This document shows positions 23,269-37,578 of a DNA stretch of 64,000 bases, one piece after another. The stretch is taken from positions 1,736,001-1,800,000 of the forward strand of contig NZ_LT629696.1 of assembly GCF_900100265.1 (NCBI RefSeq). The letters run 5' to 3'. The notes below the pieces were generated by a model. That model was not told the origin of the DNA. It ran no database searches and was given only the letters and a program-made list of their open reading frames with translations. Within the stretch, counting starts at the first letter, position 1. Each line of letters begins with the position of its first letter. Origin of the DNA: Leifsonia sp. 466MF (GTDB lineage Bacteria; Actinomycetota; Actinomycetes; Actinomycetales; Microbacteriaceae). The position numbers were made by a program, and so were the translations under genes.

Positions 23269-23520
23269 ATGGCATTGTCCACCGAAGAAGTTCTTGCCGG
23301 CCTGGCCGAGCTCATCAACGACGAGACCGGCATCGCGACCGACACGGTTGAGCTGGACAAGTCGTTCACCGACGACCTCGACATCGACTCGATCTCGATG
23401 ATGACCATCGTGGTCAACGCCGAGGACAAGTTCGACGTGAAGATCCCCGACGAGGAGGTCAAGAACCTCAAGACCGTCGGAGACGCGGTCGAGTTCATCG
23501 TCAAGGCGCAGAACGCCTAG
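23269..23520 (+). CDS. acpP: Acyl carrier protein
   Basis: This 83-residue acidic four-helix protein carries the growing acyl chain on 4'-phosphopantetheine. The attachment site is Ser41 in DDLDIDSISMM; the usual DSL triad is DSI here, as in several actinobacterial ACPs. It is preceded by AAGGAGAG, consistent with strong expression. It is followed by a perfect 13-base intercistronic hairpin before fabF, which may raise acpP transcript level relative to fabF. Confidence 0.96.
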   Translation: MALSTEEVLAGLAELINDETGIATDTVELDKSFTDDLDIDSISMMTIVVNAEDKFDVKIPDEEVKNLKTVGDAVEFIVKAQNA

Positions 23521-27188: not shown

Positions 27189-28916
27189 TCATTTCGCCTC
27201 AGCGTAGCTGTCGACGATCGCGGCCGTCACAGGGAACTCCACCGGGAATGCGCCGAACAGCAGCCTGCCCGCCTGCTCCGCCGCGGCGTGCACGGCGGCA
27301 GCGACCTCGTCCGCCAGCGCCTCCGGGGTGTGGACGATGACCTCGTCGTGCAGGAAGTAGACGAGATGCGGGGATGCCGTGAGCGGTGCATCCGGGGCGA
27401 GGGCGGTCAGGCGGTTGCGGAGCTCGGCCATCCAGCACAGCGCCCACTCGGCGGCGCTGGCCTGCACGACGAAGTTGCGGGTGAACCGGCCCCAGTCACG
27501 GGACAGGCCGCGGGCACGCCGTTCGTCGGCCTCGGTCGCATCGGACGCCGACGCCGCCGATTGAGCCGCCGCCCATCGGCCGCCCGGAACCGGCGAACTG
27601 CGGCCGAGCCGGGATGTGACCTTTTCGCCGCGCTCCCCCGCCCGCGCCGCCTCCTCCACGAGCCGGACGGCCCGCGGGAAGGCGCGCGTGAGTCGCGGCA
27701 TCAGTCGGCCGCTCTCCCCCGTCGTCGCCCCGTACATCGCGCCGAGCATGGCGACCTTCGCCTGCGCGCGGGCTTCGACGGCGCCGGACGCGACGATGCC
27801 CTCGTAGAGGTCTTTGCCCCGGCCGGCGGCGGCCATCGCCTGGTCGCCGGAGAGTCCGGTGAGGACGCGCGGCTCGAGCTGGGCGGCGTCCGCCACGACC
27901 AGCTTCCAGCCCGGATCGGCCACGACGGCCCCGCGGACCTGCCGCGGCAGCTGCAAGGCGCCGCCGCCGCGGGTCGCCCAGCGGCCGGTGACGACGCCGC
28001 CGGGAACGTAGTCAGGCCGGAAGCGGCCGTCGTGCACCCAGGCGTCCAGCCACGTCCAGCCGTTCGCGGTCAGCAGCCGCGACAGCTTCTTGTAGCGCAG
28101 CAGCGGGTCGATGACGGGGTGTTCGATGCGCCGGAGCTCCCATGACCGCGTCGATGTCGCCATGATGCCGGCGCGCTGCAGGGCCTTGAGCAGGTCCGGC
28201 GGGCTGTCGGGGTTCAGATCGGGCGCATCCAACTGGTCGCGGAGTTCCCGCGCGAGGGTCTCCAGTACGGCGGGACGACCGTACGCGGGACGGGGGCCGA
28301 GCAGGTCGGTCAGCAATTCGTCGTGCCGCTCGGCGCTGTAGGGCAGGCCTGCGTGCTGCAGCTCCACTCCGATGAGCGCGCCTGCGGACTCGGCCGCGAG
28401 CAGGAGCCGCAGGCGGCGCGGGTCGGCGCTCGCGGCGACGGCCTCCTCCTGCGCTGCGAACTCATCGCGAACGGATGGCGTGGTCGCGTTCGCCGTCTCG
28501 GCCGGCTCCACAGAATCGAAGAGGGCCTCGTCGAAGTCGAAGAGAGCCGTGTGCGAGGCCGGCGACTCGGTCTCGGGCTCGACCGCCACATCCCAGGCAC
28601 CCGGCTCGGCACGCGCCAGAGGTGTGGATGCGGTCAGCGTGGAGTTGCGGAGGATCACGTGGCAGAGCCGCAGGTCGACGCAGCGCTCCACCCGCACCCC
28701 GGCGGAGAGGAGCGTGGGATACCAGGCCCGCGTGTCATCCCACACCCAGCGCGGCCGATCGCCGCCGCCTGCCGCGCCCGTCTCCTCCGTACGCACGAGC
28801 TCCGGCAGGGCGTCGAGCGCAAGGGTCGCGCTCCGCTCGGCCCCGCCGCCGTGCGACGGATCGAGCCGCGTCGCGCGGACGTCGCCGCGCCCGACGCGCT
28901 CGAGGAGGATGTGCAC
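27189..28916 (-). CDS. Family A DNA polymerase without 5' nuclease (PolA-like)
   Basis: This 575-residue protein resembles the 3'-5' exonuclease/polymerase part of DNA polymerase I. The polymerase motifs are present: motif A VVADAAQLEPRVL with the metal-binding Asp, motif B RAQAKVAMLGAMYG and motif C FLHDEVIVH. The first about 200 residues are a divergent exonuclease-like domain in which I cannot find the full DEDD set, so proofreading may be lost. The family is known in actinobacteria as a second polymerase alongside PolA; a repair role is inferred. GTG 28916 is chosen for HILLERVG, the usual N-terminus; GGGAGG abuts it. Confidence 0.85.
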   Translation of the reverse strand: MHILLERVGRGDVRATRLDPSHGGGAERSATLALDALPELVRTEETGAAGGGDRPRWVWDDTRAWYPTLLSAGVRVERCVDLRLCHVILRNSTLTASTPLARAEPGAWDVAVEPETESPASHTALFDFDEALFDSVEPAETANATTPSVRDEFAAQEEAVAASADPRRLRLLLAAESAGALIGVELQHAGLPYSAERHDELLTDLLGPRPAYGRPAVLETLARELRDQLDAPDLNPDSPPDLLKALQRAGIMATSTRSWELRRIEHPVIDPLLRYKKLSRLLTANGWTWLDAWVHDGRFRPDYVPGGVVTGRWATRGGGALQLPRQVRGAVVADPGWKLVVADAAQLEPRVLTGLSGDQAMAAAGRGKDLYEGIVASGAVEARAQAKVAMLGAMYGATTGESGRLMPRLTRAFPRAVRLVEEAARAGERGEKVTSRLGRSSPVPGGRWAAAQSAASASDATEADERRARGLSRDWGRFTRNFVVQASAAEWALCWMAELRNRLTALAPDAPLTASPHLVYFLHDEVIVHTPEALADEVAAAVHAAAEQAGRLLFGAFPVEFPVTAAIVDSYAEAK

Positions 28917-29032
28917 CCTCCCATTCTCGCCGCGACCGCCGACACGGACCGACGCCCGAATGCTTGCTTGCGGGCCCGCAGCTGAGGATAATTCACGGAA
29001 CGACGATGCCGACCCGAAAGGCATGATCGACG

Positions 29033-30735: not shown

Positions 30736-31214
30736 TGCCCGCCCGCAGCGCCGCCCTCCTGCTCTACCGCCGTCGCGCCGCCGTCGAGGTGTGGATCGCC
30801 CACATGGGCGGCCCGTTCTGGGCGCGCAAGGACGAGGGGGCATGGTCGCTGCCGAAGGGCATCGTGGAGTCCGACGACCTGGGCGACGAGCTGGCCGCCG
30901 CGCGCCGCGAGTTCGCCGAGGAGATGGGCTCCCCCGCGCCGGATGCCGACTACGTTCCGCTCGGCGAGTTCCGTGGTTCGGGCAAGACGATCGTCGTGTT
31001 CGCCGCCGAGTCGGAGTTCGAGCCGGACGCGATCGACAGCAACACGTTCGAGCTGGAGTGGCCTCCGCGATCGGGTCGGATGCAGGAGTTCCCGGAGATC
31101 GACGACGCCCGGTGGTTCTCGGTGGACGACGCGCGCCTGAAGCTGACGAAAGCCCAGCGGCCCATTCTGGACACGCTGCTCGCCCGCCTGGAGGAGGACG
31201 CGGAAATCCACTAG
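30735..31214 (+). CDS. Nudix domain protein
   Basis: This 159-residue protein has a Nudix box reading GIVESDDLGDELAAARREFAEEMG, close to consensus with the REFxEE core intact. It begins RSAALLLYRRRAAVEVWIAHMGGPFWARKDEGAWSLPKG, matching the group of Nudix proteins that resemble mycobacterial and diadenosine-polyphosphate hydrolases; the exact substrate is not known. GAGGAGAAGG from the channel gene serves as ribosome binding site, and the ATG overlaps the channel stop. Co-translation with a potassium channel hints at a nucleotide-linked control of the channel, an inference only. Confidence 0.83.
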   Translation: MPARSAALLLYRRRAAVEVWIAHMGGPFWARKDEGAWSLPKGIVESDDLGDELAAARREFAEEMGSPAPDADYVPLGEFRGSGKTIVVFAAESEFEPDAIDSNTFELEWPPRSGRMQEFPEIDDARWFSVDDARLKLTKAQRPILDTLLARLEEDAEIH

Positions 31215-31276
31215 TCCCCACAGCTTCCCCGCGCCGTAGGGTAAGCCTCAGCAGGGCGGAACCCGAAGGAGGGGCT

Positions 31277-31639
31277 GTGGCGAAGAGCAAGGCCGAGAAG
31301 GCCGCCGAGAAGGCACTCGACGCGGCGCGGGTCGCCGTCGGCGAAGCGGAGCAGGCGGTCAAGAAGCTCGACAAGAAGACACGGCGCGAGGCGGAGGATC
31401 TTGCCGACCGCCTCCAGCAGGCCGCGAAGGATGCGAAGAAGGCGGTCCGCCGGGCCAAGAAGACCGCGGACGACGCACGGACCTCGGCGAAGCAGATCGT
31501 CGAGCACGTGGCGGCGCCCGCGTCGAGCACCGGCATCCCGACGTTCCGCGAGCTGCGCGACCGGGCGAAGGCGCGCGGCATCCAGGGGTACTCGCGCATG
31601 AACAAGGCCCAGCTGCTGCACGCGCTGGGCGAGGGGTGA
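31277..31639 (+). CDS. Basic coiled-coil protein with SAP/Rho-N-like tail
   Basis: This 120-residue protein is rich in Lys, Ala and Glu. Residues 1-80 form a continuous charged helix (KAEKAAEKALDAARVAVGE, RRAKKTADDARTSAKQIVEH). The C-terminus PTFRELRDRAKARGIQGYSR, then MNKAQLLHAL, resembles the helix-extended-helix of SAP or Rho N-terminal domains, which bind nucleic acid. I infer a small DNA- or RNA-binding protein. GTG 31277 follows AAGGAGGGG. It is 50 bases before the Pls-like synthetase gene but need not be in the same transcript. Confidence 0.65.
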   Translation: MAKSKAEKAAEKALDAARVAVGEAEQAVKKLDKKTRREAEDLADRLQQAAKDAKKAVRRAKKTADDARTSAKQIVEHVAAPASSTGIPTFRELRDRAKARGIQGYSRMNKAQLLHALGEG

Positions 31640-31689: not shown

Positions 31690-34600
31690 GTGGCCGATGC
31701 TCCCCTGACCGATGTGTCCGACGGCGACGTGCCGACAGCCGGCAGCCCGCGCGCCGGTCTGCTGCTGCGGTCGGAGGATGCGCCTCCCGCGCGAACGCTG
31801 ATCGACATCCTGACGGAGACGGCGCGCCGTTTCCCCGATGCCTCCGCGCTGGAGGACGCCGCGGGAGCGCTGAGCTATCGCGAACTCCTGGCGCGGGTCG
31901 CGGCCGGCGCAGGCCGTCTGCGCGAGCACGGCGTGAGCCGGGGCGACCGGGTCGGCGTGCGGATGAGCTCGGGCAGCCGGGAGCTGTACCTGGCGATCCT
32001 CAGCGTGCTCGCGGCCGGCGCGGCGTACGTGCCGGTGGACGCCGACGACCCGCAGGAGCGCGCCGACCTCGTCTTCGGTGAGGCCGCCGTCCGGGCGGTC
32101 CTGACCGATGCCGGACTGGTCCTGGCGGGCGAGGACGCGCCGCAGCAGGTGCTCCGCGACGCGCCGCATCCCTCGACGGCTGCGCTCCCCGTCGTCGCCC
32201 CTCCGGAGCCGCAGGACGACGCGTGGATCATCTTCACGTCCGGCTCCACGGGAACGCCGAAGGGCGTCGCCGTGCGCCACCGGTCCGCGGCCGCGTTCGT
32301 GGACGCCGAATCCCGGCTGTTCCTGCAGGAGGAGCCGATGGGCCCGCAGGATCGCGTGCTCGCCGGGCTCTCGGTCGCGTTCGACGCATCCTGTGAGGAG
32401 ATGTGGCTGGCCTGGGCGCACGGCGCCTGCCTCGTGCCCGCACCGCGCGCGCTCGTCCGTACCGGGATGGACCTCGGCCCCTGGCTCTCCGCCCGCCGCA
32501 TCACCGTGGTCTCCACCGTCCCGACCCTCGCGGCGCTGTGGCCGGTGGATGCGCTGGACAACGTCCGGCTGCTCATCTTCGGCGGGGAGGCGTGCCCGCC
32601 GGAGCTGGTGAGCCGGCTCGCCGTACCGGGGCGCGAGGTGTGGAACACGTACGGGCCGACGGAGGCGACCGTCGTCGCATGCGCGGCACCGCTGGTCGCG
32701 GGCGAGCCCGTGCGCATCGGGTTGCCGCTCGACGGCTGGGATCTGGCGGTGGTGGATTCGGAGGGCCGCCCGGTCGCGGACGGCGAGAGCGGCGAGCTCG
32801 TCATCGGCGGCGTCGGCCTCGCCCGCTACCTCGATCCGGCGAAGGACGCGGAGAAGTACGCGCCGATGCCCACGCTCGGCTGGGAGCGCGCGTACCGGAG
32901 CGGCGACCTGGTGCGGTTCGACCCGGCCGGGCTGTTCTACCAGGGCCGCGCCGACGACCAGGTGAAGGTCGGCGGCAGGAGGATCGAGCTGGGCGAGGTG
33001 GAGTCGGCGCTGCAGCAGCTTCCCGGCGTCTCCGGTGCCGCGGCCGCGGTTCGCCGTTCCGCCGCGGGCAACGACATCCTGGTCGGCTACCTGGCCGTGC
33101 CGGATGCCGCATCCTTCGACCGCGCGGCCTCGCTCGCCCAGCTGCGCGAGACGCTTCCCGCCGCGCTCGTTCCGCTGCTCGCCGTGATCGACGAGCTTCC
33201 GGTGCGCACCTCCGGCAAGGTGGACAAGGCCGCGCTGCCGTGGCCGCTGGAGGACACCGCGTCCGACGGCGCGACCACGGACGACCCGGTGGCAGCCGCG
33301 CTGGCGGACGACTGGCGCAGCGTCCTCGGGCTGCCGGTCACCGGCCCTGACGACAACTTCTTCGACCTGGGCGGAGGTTCGTTGGCGGCGGCGCAGCTGG
33401 TGTCGTTGATCCGCCGGCGGCATCCCGACATCACCGTCGCCGACGTGTACGCGACGCCGCGTTTCGGGGCGATGGCGCAGGCGCTGGCGGAGAGCTCGCC
33501 GTCGTCGTCGGCCGCGTCCACGCACGTGGTCCCGCCGACCCCGCTGCGAATGCGTGCACTGCAGACCGTCCTCGGCATCCCGCTGTTCATCCTCGGCGGC
33601 ATCCGCTGGCTGCTGTATCTGCTGGCCGCGTCCGCGCTGCTGCGGCCTTTTGGCGGGTTCGACGTGCTGCCCGCGGCCGACCCGGTCTGGCTCATCCTCG
33701 GGCTCGTCGTGTTCGTCACGCCCTGGGGGCGTATGGCGATCGCGGTGGTCGCCGCCCGGCTGCTCCTGCTCGGGGTGCGGGCGGGCGACCATCCCCGTGG
33801 CGGCGGCGTGCACCTCCGGCTGTGGCTGGCCGAGCAGGTCGCCCACCAGATCGGCGCCGCCAGCCTCGCGGGAGCCCCGTGGATCCTGTACTACGCCCGC
33901 GCGCTCGGTGCGACGATCGACCGCGGCGTCGACCTCCACACCCTGCCGCCGGTGACCGGGATGCTGCGGATCGGCGCCGGCGCCTCCATCGAGCCGGAGG
34001 TCGACCTGGCCGGCTACTGGATCGACGGCGACGTCGTGCGGATCGGCGAGATCCGCATCGGCGCCGGCAGCTCGGTCGGCGCACGCAGCTCGCTCATGCC
34101 CGGCACCAAGATCGGCCGCAACGCGACCGTGGCCCCGGGGTCGGCCGTGTTCGGCCGGGTGCCCGCGGGCCAGAACTGGTCGGGCTCGCCCGCCGTCCGC
34201 GTCGGCCGGGCGCACGACTGGTGGCCGCAGGAGCGGCCGCAACGCCGGACCCGCTGGCTCGCCGCGTACGCGCTGTCGTCGATCGTCGTCTCGCTCGTCC
34301 CGGTTGTCGCCCTCGCGGCGGGTGCCGCGGTGGTCGCCGCCTTCCTCCGTGGTGCGGCCGGCTGGGGCGACGTGATCGCCCGCGCTGCGGCCGGCCTGGT
34401 TCCCGGCACGCTCGTCGCCGGCGTCGTGCTCGCCGCGCTGGTCGTCGTGCTGGTCAGGCTGCTCGGCATCGGGATGCGCGAGGGCATCTACCCGGTCCGC
34501 AGCAGGACGGGGTGGCAGGCGTGGTCGACGGAGCGTCTGCTCGACCAGGCCCGCACGATGCTCTTCCCGCTGTACTCGAGCCTGTTCACTCCGGTCTGGC

Positions 34601-35670
34601 TGCGGATGCTCGGTGCCCGAGTGGGCTCCGATGTCGAGGCATCGACCGTGCTGCTCCTCCCCCGCATGACCCGCATCCGCGACGGCGCGTTCCTCGCCGA
34701 CGACACGCTCGTGGCGTCGTACGAGCTCGGCGGCGGATACGTCCGCATCGCCGCGGTCGACATCGGGGCGCGCGCCTTCCTCGGAAACTCGGGAATGGCC
34801 GGAGCGGGCAACCGGGTCCCTCGTGACGGCCTGGTCGCCGTGCTGTCGTTCGCGCCGCGCAAGGCGAAGGCCGGCACGTCGTGGCTGGGTTCTCCGCCCG
34901 TGAAGCTCCGCCGCCAGACGCAGGACGCCGACCTCTCGCGCACCTTCGAGCCGCCGACGCGCCTGCGGGTCGCCCGCACCGCGTGGGAGCTGCTGCGGAT
35001 CGTGCCCGTGATCGTCACCTGCGCCATCGGCCTGGCCGTCGTCATCGCGCTGGGCGCCGTGGACGTGGCCTGGGGTCCGATCTGGGCGATCATCCTGAGC
35101 GGGCCCGTCCTCCTGCTCGCGGGCGCCGTCGCCGCAGCGCTCAGCACCGCCGCCAAGTGGGCGCTGATCGGGAGGCTGAAGCCGGGCGAGCATCCCCTCT
35201 GGTCGTCGTTCGTGTGGCGCAGCGAGGTGTCCGACACGTTCACAGAGATGGTCGCGGCGCCCTGGTTCGCCTGGGCGGCCTCCGGGACCCCCGCGCTGGT
35301 GTGGTGGCTGCGCAGCCTCGGCGCACGGATCGGCTCCGGCGTCTGGATCGACAGCTACTGGCTCCCGGAGGCCGATCTGGTCACGCTGGGCGACGCATCC
35401 ACCGTCAATCGGGGCTGCGTCGTGCAGACGCACCTGTTCCATGATCGAATCATGAGCATGGACCAGGTCACCATCGAACGCGGCGGAACGCTCGGGCCGC
35501 ACAGCGTCATCCTGCCCGCAGCCGATATCGGCGCCGACGCGACCGTCGGGCCCGCCTCCCTCGTGATGCGCGGCGAGACCGTCCCCGCGGGCAGCCGCTG
35601 GAGCGGCAACCCGATCGGTCCGTGGCGCGAAGTCGTCGTGCGCGAGTACCGGGCGCGGGCCGGCGGATGA
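31690..35670 (+). CDS. Pls/PosA-family peptide synthetase (poly-amino-acid synthetase-like)
   Basis: This 1326-residue single-module synthetase anchored in the membrane consists of an adenylation domain, carrier domain, six helices and three soluble C-domains. Adenylation motifs: FTSGSTGTPKG (about 181), NTYGPTEATV (319), YRSGDLV, GRADDQVKVGGRRIELGEVE, SGKVDKAALP. The carrier serine is Ser564 in FFDLGGGSLAAAQ. Helix pairs near 625-690, 857-930 and 1098-1150 separate three left-handed-beta-helix-like C-domains beginning near 759, 974 and 1210. This is the order and almost the length of Streptomyces epsilon-poly-L-lysine synthetase. Pocket residues D232, A233, E236, S275, I296, G298, T320, V328, V329 plus Lys suggest lysine or a close analogue. 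The stop overlaps the M1 peptidase start. Confidence 0.9.
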   Translation: MADAPLTDVSDGDVPTAGSPRAGLLLRSEDAPPARTLIDILTETARRFPDASALEDAAGALSYRELLARVAAGAGRLREHGVSRGDRVGVRMSSGSRELYLAILSVLAAGAAYVPVDADDPQERADLVFGEAAVRAVLTDAGLVLAGEDAPQQVLRDAPHPSTAALPVVAPPEPQDDAWIIFTSGSTGTPKGVAVRHRSAAAFVDAESRLFLQEEPMGPQDRVLAGLSVAFDASCEEMWLAWAHGACLVPAPRALVRTGMDLGPWLSARRITVVSTVPTLAALWPVDALDNVRLLIFGGEACPPELVSRLAVPGREVWNTYGPTEATVVACAAPLVAGEPVRIGLPLDGWDLAVVDSEGRPVADGESGELVIGGVGLARYLDPAKDAEKYAPMPTLGWERAYRSGDLVRFDPAGLFYQGRADDQVKVGGRRIELGEVESALQQLPGVSGAAAAVRRSAAGNDILVGYLAVPDAASFDRAASLAQLRETLPAALVPLLAVIDELPVRTSGKVDKAALPWPLEDTASDGATTDDPVAAALADDWRSVLGLPVTGPDDNFFDLGGGSLAAAQLVSLIRRRHPDITVADVYATPRFGAMAQALAESSPSSSAASTHVVPPTPLRMRALQTVLGIPLFILGGIRWLLYLLAASALLRPFGGFDVLPAADPVWLILGLVVFVTPWGRMAIAVVAARLLLLGVRAGDHPRGGGVHLRLWLAEQVAHQIGAASLAGAPWILYYARALGATIDRGVDLHTLPPVTGMLRIGAGASIEPEVDLAGYWIDGDVVRIGEIRIGAGSSVGARSSLMPGTKIGRNATVAPGSAVFGRVPAGQNWSGSPAVRVGRAHDWWPQERPQRRTRWLAAYALSSIVVSLVPVVALAAGAAVVAAFLRGAAGWGDVIARAAAGLVPGTLVAGVVLAALVVVLVRLLGIGMREGIYPVRSRTGWQAWSTERLLDQARTMLFPLYSSLFTPVWLRMLGARVGSDVEASTVLLLPRMTRIRDGAFLADDTLVASYELGGGYVRIAAVDIGARAFLGNSGMAGAGNRVPRDGLVAVLSFAPRKAKAGTSWLGSPPVKLRRQTQDADLSRTFEPPTRLRVARTAWELLRIVPVIVTCAIGLAVVIALGAVDVAWGPIWAIILSGPVLLLAGAVAAALSTAAKWALIGRLKPGEHPLWSSFVWRSEVSDTFTEMVAAPWFAWAASGTPALVWWLRSLGARIGSGVWIDSYWLPEADLVTLGDASTVNRGCVVQTHLFHDRIMSMDQVTIERGGTLGPHSVILPAADIGADATVGPASLVMRGETVPAGSRWSGNPIGPWREVVVREYRARAGG

Positions 35671-36971
35671 GCGACGGAGCACCGCACACCTACCTGCCGC
35701 GCTCCGGCACCCACGACTTCTCGGTCCTCCGGTACGACCTCGACCTCGACTACCGGGTGACGACGAACCGGTTGGATGCGACGGCGCTGATCCGCGCGCG
35801 GGCCGACGTCCCGCTGACGGCGATCGTGCTGGACCTCGTCCATCTCAAGGCCAAGAAGGTGCGGGTGGACGGGCAGAAGCGCGCCCGGTTCAGCCAGAGC
35901 GCGACGCACCTCCGCATCCTTCCGGCGTCGCCCATCCCGGCCGGCGAGGAGTTCATCGTCGAGATCGCTTACGACGGCTCGCCCGTGCCGCGCAGGACCC
36001 GCTGGGGCACGCTCGGCTGGGAGGAGCTGACCGACGGGGTCATCGTGGCCTCGCAGCCCTCCGGAGCGCCCACCTGGTTCCCGTGCAACGACCGGCCCTC
36101 CGACCGCGCCGCCTACGGCATCCGCGTGACGACCGAACAGGCGTACACGGTGCTCGCGACCGGCGAGCCAACCGGGCACGGCGTCAGCGGAGGGCGCGGG
36201 ACGTGGACGTTCGAGCGCGAGGAGCCGACGGCGACCTACCTCGCGTCGGTGCAGATCGGCCGCTACACGCTCGAACCGCGGCGGACGGCCGGTGTGGAGT
36301 GGGTGGTCGCCTATCCGCCCGCTCTCGCACGCCGCGTGCTGCACGACTTCGAACCCGTCGGGCGGATGCTGGAGCGCTTCCAGACGCTGTTCGGGCCGTA
36401 CCCGTTCCCGTCGTACACGGTCGTCGTCACGGAGGATGCGCTGGAGATCCCGCTCGAATCCCAGGCGATGGCGACCTTCGGGTCGTCGCACGCCGACGGC
36501 CGGAGCGGCTCGGAACGCCTGGTCGCCCATGAGCTGGCGCACCAGTGGTTCGGCAACAGCGTCGGGCTCGCCTCCTGGCACGACATCTGGCTGAACGAGG
36601 GGTTCGCCTGTTACGCCGAGTGGCTGTGGTCGGAGGTCTCCGGCGGGATGTCCGCGGCGGCGCACGCGCGCATCCACCACGCCGCTCTGCGCGTCACGCC
36701 CGGCGACCTGCTGCTCGGCGACCCGGGGCCGGACTCGATGTTCGACGACCGCGTGTACAAGCGGGGCGCGTGCCTGCTGCACGCACTCAGGCTGCGGCTG
36801 GGCGACGACGTGTTCTTCGAGCTGTTGCGGACCTGGACGCGGGAGAACCGGTTCGGGACGGTCACGAGCGCCGATTTCGAGGCACTCGCGGAGCGGTTCT
36901 CGGAGGAGCCGCTCGGCGGTTTCTTCGATGCCTGGCTGCGGGAGACGCGGCTGCCGTCGCTCGGGCGCTGA
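35667..36971 (+). CDS. M1 family metallopeptidase, short form
   Basis: This 434-residue zinc aminopeptidase has the N-terminal beta-saddle and the thermolysin-like catalytic domain: HELAH at residues 288-292, with the third ligand Glu311 in NEGFACYAEW. The exopeptidase loop is MATFGSS rather than the usual GAMEN. The large C-terminal helical domain of full-length M1 enzymes is absent, and there is no signal peptide. The ATG overlaps the synthetase stop as ATGA, so the two proteins are made together. In epsilon-polylysine producers a membrane-associated zinc aminopeptidase degrades the polymer. A similar trimming or self-protection role is inferred here. Confidence 0.88.
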   Translation: MSDGAPHTYLPRSGTHDFSVLRYDLDLDYRVTTNRLDATALIRARADVPLTAIVLDLVHLKAKKVRVDGQKRARFSQSATHLRILPASPIPAGEEFIVEIAYDGSPVPRRTRWGTLGWEELTDGVIVASQPSGAPTWFPCNDRPSDRAAYGIRVTTEQAYTVLATGEPTGHGVSGGRGTWTFEREEPTATYLASVQIGRYTLEPRRTAGVEWVVAYPPALARRVLHDFEPVGRMLERFQTLFGPYPFPSYTVVVTEDALEIPLESQAMATFGSSHADGRSGSERLVAHELAHQWFGNSVGLASWHDIWLNEGFACYAEWLWSEVSGGMSAAAHARIHHAALRVTPGDLLLGDPGPDSMFDDRVYKRGACLLHALRLRLGDDVFFELLRTWTRENRFGTVTSADFEALAERFSEEPLGGFFDAWLRETRLPSLGR

Positions 36972-36984
36972 ACTCGCGGCGCGG

Positions 36985-37578
36985 TCACACCGTGCGACGT
37001 AAGCCCGTCGCCACGGTGATCAGGCAGTCGCCCGCGCGCGTGGTGCGCAGCGTGTAGAGGCGGCCGTCGAGGCGCGCGGAGAGCCGCCCGACACGCACGG
37101 CACCGGGATCCCGTCGCAGCCCCCTCCCGTCGGCTTTGAGCACGGCCTCGACGGCCGTCCACCGACGTCCGGGGTCGCCGTGGCCGGGAGCGAGCTCGTC
37201 GATCGCCTGTGCGCGCCCGCGCAGAGCGCCCATTGTCTCCGCGTCGATGCCGACGGGATACCGGGCAGCGACCGCGAACGCCTGTCCGTCCGCGTGCGAG
37301 ACCGAGACGGAGAGGCGCCCGGACCCGTCCACGACCACCGGCCGGCCGTGCGACAGTCCGCAGTCCGGGCAGGTCGCGTCGATGCGCGCATCCGGGGCTC
37401 CCGCATCGCTCAGCGCGCGCTGGAGGGCTGCCCGCCCCGCGACGAAGGCCGCGAGACCGTCGAGGTCGTGGTGCAGCGACGACAGCCGCGCGAGATCGCC
37501 CTCCGAGAGACGGGATGCGACGCGCGCGACGAGGGCGGCATCCACTGAGCGATGCGGGACGATGACGAGGGCGGGCAT
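36985..37578 (-). CDS. 4'-phosphopantetheinyl transferase, Sfp-like
   Basis: This 197-residue enzyme transfers phosphopantetheine from CoA to a carrier-protein serine. The core motifs are VSVSHADGQAFAV, the magnesium-binding VGIDAE and WTAVEAVLKADGRGL (usual form WxxKEAxxK). A CPDCGLSHGRP segment before the core is typical of the group. GGAGG precedes ATG 37578. It converges on the synthetase-peptidase operon with a 13-base gap and is the obvious candidate to activate the synthetase carrier domain, though it may serve other carrier proteins. WTAVEA in place of WxxKEA is a mild deviation. Confidence 0.85.
   Translation of the reverse strand: MPALVIVPHRSVDAALVARVASRLSEGDLARLSSLHHDLDGLAAFVAGRAALQRALSDAGAPDARIDATCPDCGLSHGRPVVVDGSGRLSVSVSHADGQAFAVAARYPVGIDAETMGALRGRAQAIDELAPGHGDPGRRWTAVEAVLKADGRGLRRDPGAVRVGRLSARLDGRLYTLRTTRAGDCLITVATGLRRTV

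Follow-up and report, generated by a model that had tools for sequence, protein, structure and literature searches.

A Pls-type synthetase, its coupled peptidase, and a linked phosphopantetheinyl transferase form a probable epsilon-poly-L-lysine cassette in Leifsonia sp. 466MF

Epsilon-poly-lysine, an antimicrobial polymer produced with Streptomyces, is approved for preserving food. A 64,000-nucleotide stretch of the Leifsonia sp. 466MF genome (hereafter the window) carries a gene for a Pls-like synthetase, followed by a peptidase gene and a convergent gene for a small phosphopantetheinyl transferase (PPTase), which raises the question of what the locus makes and whether the PPTase belongs to it. 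We consider it likely that the whole is an epsilon-poly-L-lysine cassette with a PPTase dedicated to Pls. The PPTase would turn Ser564 of Pls to the holo form; the adenylation (A) domain, judging from its pocket, would adenylate L-lysine and load the carrier; and the membrane-linked C domains, as known for Pls, would repeatedly join the epsilon-amine of each lysine to the carboxyl group of the following one. The polymer would then exit the cell, as is also known for Pls, and the coupled M1 peptidase would cleave it and protect the producer, as reported for PldII. The PPTase would be dedicated to Pls, with no other client evident in the genome.

The synthetase and its predicted product

The pls gene (31690..35670, forward strand), a predicted ortholog of epsilon-poly-L-lysine synthetase genes, starts with GTG and encodes 1326 residues according to the open reading frame list. 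The Pfam search placed an AMP-binding domain (PF00501) at residues 42-379, a PP-binding carrier domain (PF00550) at 537-599, and hexapeptide repeats at 788-820. The NCBIfam model TIGR02353 ('Pls/PosA family non-ribosomal peptide synthetase') matched residues 623-1309 with 702.8 bits (cut-off 423.1) and was covered over its full length (1-695 of 695). The carrier serine is residue 564, within FFDLGGGSL, and the closest solved chain to the A domain was 7wew, an epsilon-poly-L-lysine synthase (626 bits over residues 15-521). Three paired hydrophobic regions (approximately 624-689, 855-933, and 1097-1160) are compatible with six helices, a topology judged from hydropathy only, while a weak hydrophobic stretch (98-117) falls inside the A domain; a search of the cryo-EM literature found nothing. 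Judged by sequence, the product is a full-length Pls/PosA-family synthetase composed of an A domain, a carrier (T) domain, and a terminal region of three C domains, and it shows the Pls-family sequence features that were looked for. The levels of score and conservation seen at the locus exclude chance as their cause. A preliminary description of this DNA had proposed a 1326-residue adenylation-carrier-three-C-domain protein with the domain order of Streptomyces albulus Pls, and both proposals were borne out by PF00501, PF00550, and the full-length TIGR02353 match.

The ten pocket positions were set by motif anchors and were checked against the residue spacing of PosA, the delta-poly-L-ornithine synthetase of Acinetobacter baumannii, as given in the accessible text of PMC10522769; the spacing agrees except for one inserted residue. 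The pocket obtained, DAESIGTVVK, is the same as in 7wew at all ten aligned residues, and it occurs together with the carrier serine in 81/81 aligned Pls proteins (that of the window and those of the best 80 of 592 loci). PosA belongs by name to the TIGR02353 family, as does the Pls studied here, but activates another substrate and has methionine where lysine-activating members have alanine (PMC10522769, accessible text); the Leifsonia pocket has alanine at this position. Because the ten residues equal those of 7wew and include the alanine of lysine activators, L-lysine is by far the likeliest substrate of the enzyme. The isopeptide-linked amino-acid homopolymer put forward in the preliminary description is therefore supported and can be narrowed, as a sequence-based prediction, to a polymer of L-lysine.

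Poly-ornithine, poly-diaminobutyrate, poly-diaminopropionate, and poly-beta-lysine are the other isopeptide polymers to be considered, and the architecture described above is common to the synthetases of these products (accessible texts of PMC8117764 and PMC10522769). Their substrates were judged unlikely from the pocket residues, which differ from the codes DMEHNGTVSK of PosA and DGESISVVNK of the poly-beta-lysine type (PMC10522769, accessible text), and the gene context of the three other synthetases differs from the pls-peptidase operon (PMC8117764, accessible text), so that we give such a product very little credence. It is also conceivable that no polymer is made at all: native cultures of Corynebacterium variabile, which carries an orthologous gene, contained neither detectable polymer nor a Pls protein signal (PMC8117764, accessible text), and the Leifsonia locus may therefore be silent or yield nothing in practice. 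We regard this as improbable, since all three reading frames are open and the motifs checked are present, except for Lys143 of the PPTase.

Among the best 80 of the 592 loci, the nearest named Pls proteins (83%) come from three Leifsonia loci (L003, L004, and L010). A gene for a family A DNA polymerase-like protein is situated upstream of pls in these three loci and in the window (27189-29024, reverse strand; 611 aa; PF00476, 71.2 bits). The open reading frame directly upstream of pls (30791-31639) is rich in Lys and Ala, probably has a later true start, and ends in a weakly Rho_N-like C-terminus (PF07498, 22.0 bits, below the cut-off of 24.9).

The coupled M1 peptidase

The second gene (35667..36971, forward strand) encodes a 434-residue M1 zinc metallopeptidase, putatively PldII-like. 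The longer frame from 35622 matched the catalytic (PF01433, 99.1 bits) and N-terminal (PF17900) M1 domains in Pfam, and the HELAH and NEGFA motifs are present. The ATG of the gene (35667-35669) overlaps the TGA of pls (35668-35670) as ATGA, which confirms the overlap of start and stop noted in the preliminary description. In S. albulus, pldII is translationally coupled to pls and associated with self-protection (PMC9223678, accessible text), and the Leifsonia gene, by its sequence, shares this position and coupling. Each of the best 80 of the 592 loci had an M1 homolog downstream of pls in the same orientation, at a distance of up to 200 nt in 75 of them and beyond that in L052, L059, L068, L069, and L070. 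Among the 120 peptidase matches listed of 7994, many of the nearest named ones were from Leifsonia, and none was named PldII.

The preliminary description had also assigned the peptidase a role in trimming the polymer. Such trimming is suggested by homology only, and chain length was unchanged when both PLD, the second degrading enzyme of S. albulus, and PldII were inactivated in earlier work cited in the accessible text of PMC9223678. No signal peptide was obvious by eye at the N-terminus of the Leifsonia protein, and PldII is reported to lie outside the membrane. Two further M1 relatives are encoded in the genome, with 35% and 26% identity to the coupled peptidase; the former is located at G000:C1:3464047-3465351.

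Taken together, the locus is like that of S. albulus Pls and PldII in domain order, pocket (7wew), carrier motif, and coupled peptidase gene (PMC9223678, accessible text). The same pls-peptidase operon has been published for Streptomyces and, outside that genus, for C. variabile and other coryneforms, along with Pls homologs in Microbacterium, which shares the family of our genome (PMC8117764, accessible text). Closer still, antiSMASH gave 100% matches to epsilon-poly-L-lysine in Leifsonia isolates (PMC10628120, accessible text), and a NAPAA cluster is reported in Herbiconiux (PMC10011130, accessible text); these cases concern the same or a neighboring genus and are predictions only. The synthetase-peptidase pair is thus already known, and there is an earlier prediction of such a cluster in Leifsonia (PMC10628120, accessible text).

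The phosphopantetheinyl transferase and its candidate clients

The third gene (36985..37578, reverse strand, convergent with the other two) encodes a protein of 197 residues that scored 20.5 against PF01648, under the Pfam cut-off of 25. Its AlphaFold model, built with an alignment of 28 sequences, had a mean pLDDT of 93.4. Foldseek matched the model to the aminoadipate-semialdehyde dehydrogenase PPTase, Sfp, and PptT with E values from 2.2e-10 to approximately 1e-6 (best, 2cg5, 2.2e-10; Sfp 4mrt, 5.7e-9), with TM scores by query length of approximately 0.54-0.68 and a large rmsd of approximately 5-7 Å. Residues D112, W140, E144, and K148 are invariant in 28/28 aligned rows, as are C70, H77, G78, A145, and G151, and the fold and the conserved D, W, E, and K are common to Sfp, PptT, and AASDHPPT. 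The catalytic motifs of Sfp-type enzymes are GxDxE and WxxKEAxxK, with position 143 normally Lys. The Leifsonia protein is shorter than the Sfp chain 4mrt (225 residues) and has V143 in place of this first lysine. The same position is non-Lys in 14 of the 28 aligned pls-linked PPTases, all of them from Microbacteriaceae, which have V, I, A, or F there and keep the W, the E, and the second K. The model and the conserved residues point to an Sfp-type PPTase, in agreement with the convergent Sfp-like enzyme proposed in the preliminary description, and its predicted role is the activation of Pls.

The genome offers few clients for such an enzyme. Only two PP-binding domains were found in it, that of Pls and that of a fatty-acid-type acyl carrier protein (23269..23520, forward strand; NF002147, 132.7 bits against a cut-off of 84; PP-binding match at G000:C1:1759302-1759499, window 23302-23499), which lies beside FabH- and FabF-like reading frames named by eye. 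One further PPTase was found, a 118-residue AcpS (NF000832, 161.3 bits against a cut-off of 107), and a genome search for condensation domains found none. With two carriers, one of them the fatty-acid ACP, one AcpS, and no condensation domain, Pls appears to be the sole evident client of the Sfp-type PPTase, which would make the Leifsonia enzyme a clear example of a PPTase whose genome holds a single evident client. For comparison, in vitro work on full-length PosA included treatment with Sfp and CoA (PMC10522769, accessible text).

Descriptions of the related systems differ from the Leifsonia locus in this third gene. A convergent PPTase neighbor is not mentioned in the accessible text of PMC9223678 for S. 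albulus, nor is a PPTase linkage described in that of PMC8117764 for C. variabile and other coryneforms. The term 'phosphopantetheinyl' has no occurrence in PMC10628120, so a PPTase is unmentioned for the predicted Leifsonia clusters, as it is for Herbiconiux in the accessible text of PMC10011130; the word 'peptidase' is absent from the text of PMC10522769 on PosA. PMC13291983, in its accessible part, describes PUFA-type clusters that contain a PPTase and, apart from these, a Pls/PosA-like gene. A PPTase gene as a partner of pls was not found in the literature searched, which mostly excluded subscription papers and included the accessible parts of PMC4361855, PMC4668381, PMC8949500, PMC13291983, and PMC11078359, and searches on Leifsonia and Microbacteriaceae likewise found no link between pls and a PPTase. 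The partnership may therefore be new, although absence from the literature is weak evidence of novelty. C. glutamicum carrying the C. variabile pls gene yielded no polymer (PMC8117764, accessible text); the idea that Pls fails in hosts without a partner PPTase was dropped, as C. glutamicum has a PPTase of its own, PptAcg (PMC11078359, accessible text).

Linkage and co-occurrence of the PPTase with pls

We compared the best 80 of 592 confirmed pls stretches, assigned to families from their record titles. The PPTase type was present inside the flanks in 33 of these 80 loci, and in 31 of the 33 it was convergent and less than 1 kb from the peptidase end; the others were L074 (convergent, 2.5 kb away) and L014 (same strand, just upstream of pls). 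Linkage was seen in 21/25 Microbacteriaceae, 11/12 Micrococcaceae, and 1/43 other loci (Humibacillus), a few of these 43 ending soon past the peptidase (e.g., L057). The Microbacteriaceae and Micrococcaceae loci lacking a linked PPTase were L007 (Planctomonas), L040, whose contig stops approximately 0.5 kb beyond the peptidase, and L003, L004, and L010, which are all three of the named Leifsonia loci among the 80.

Additionally, 249 Microbacteriaceae genomes were searched with TIGR02353 and with an alignment of the PPTase type; PF01648 was kept out of the survey because it matched only 18 of the 28 members. Genomes above the TIGR02353 cut-off (n = 106, two of them, G070 and G228, with split matches) were counted as pls-positive. 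At E <= 0.001 the PPTase was matched in 106/106 pls-positive and 16/143 pls-negative genomes, and at E < 1e-13 in 105/106 and 12/143, the weak pls-positive match being G226 (2.9e-4). Fisher's p of 1.4e-53 for this co-occurrence ignores relatedness and is not to be taken as a probability. Within the 21 genera in which both states occur, the PPTase was present in 46/46 pls-positive and 8/44 pls-negative genomes, and in 15 of the 21 no pls-negative genome had it. The search model derives from pls-linked PPTases, and at most 15 candidates were scored per genome, so divergent PPTases in pls-negative genomes may have been missed, and the linkage itself makes joint loss likely.

Distances were measured from the 3' edge of the terminal-domain match of pls. 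The PPTase lay within 10 kb in 95 of the 106 genomes, in 87 of them downstream and convergent and in 8 upstream in the orientation of pls. In four of the remaining genomes it shared a contig with pls but was more distant (10.2 kb in two of them), and in six it was on another contig, the place in G226 not being listed; one of the six genomes of Leifsonia's own genus (G161) has the PPTase 755 kb away. Chance adjacency of the two genes was ruled out by the survey and the within-genus contrast. The same figures strengthen, well beyond adjacency, the proposal in the preliminary description that the PPTase activates Pls.

The neighboring PPTase might instead be an Sfp-type enzyme of general use that acts on any carrier. 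This would suit the 16 pls-negative genomes that have the type. Six of them encode condensation domains and one (G239) has a partial pls; in the other nine neither feature accounts for the match, which is weak in four (E 1e-8 or worse). It would also suit G066, G067, G170, G230, and G248, each of which has a large NRPS gene and, approximately 5 kb from it, a second copy, but in all five one copy still adjoins pls. Moreover, the client search across the 249 genomes, which covered condensation domains and left out polyketide synthases and carboxylate reductases, gave a condensation match in 13 of the 106 pls-positive genomes and none in 93, all of which still have the PPTase; the enzyme therefore persists where no NRPS-like client other than Pls was seen. 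As no other client was found in the Leifsonia genome studied either, we consider a general enzyme unlikely and prefer a PPTase dedicated to Pls. For Microbacteriaceae and Micrococcaceae as a whole, the evidence leans toward a short Sfp-type PPTase being a near-obligatory third cassette gene that serves Pls alone and that, in 14 of the 28 aligned sequences, every one from Microbacteriaceae, has lost the first motif lysine. Such a near-constant partner, probably the activator of Pls, could provide a testable handle on Micrococcales pls genes that may be silent.

Three genomes (G065, G123, and G169) have two full-length TIGR02353 matches each; in these, the PPTase is situated approximately 5-8 kb from the lower-scoring match, and the higher-scoring match is far from it or on another contig.
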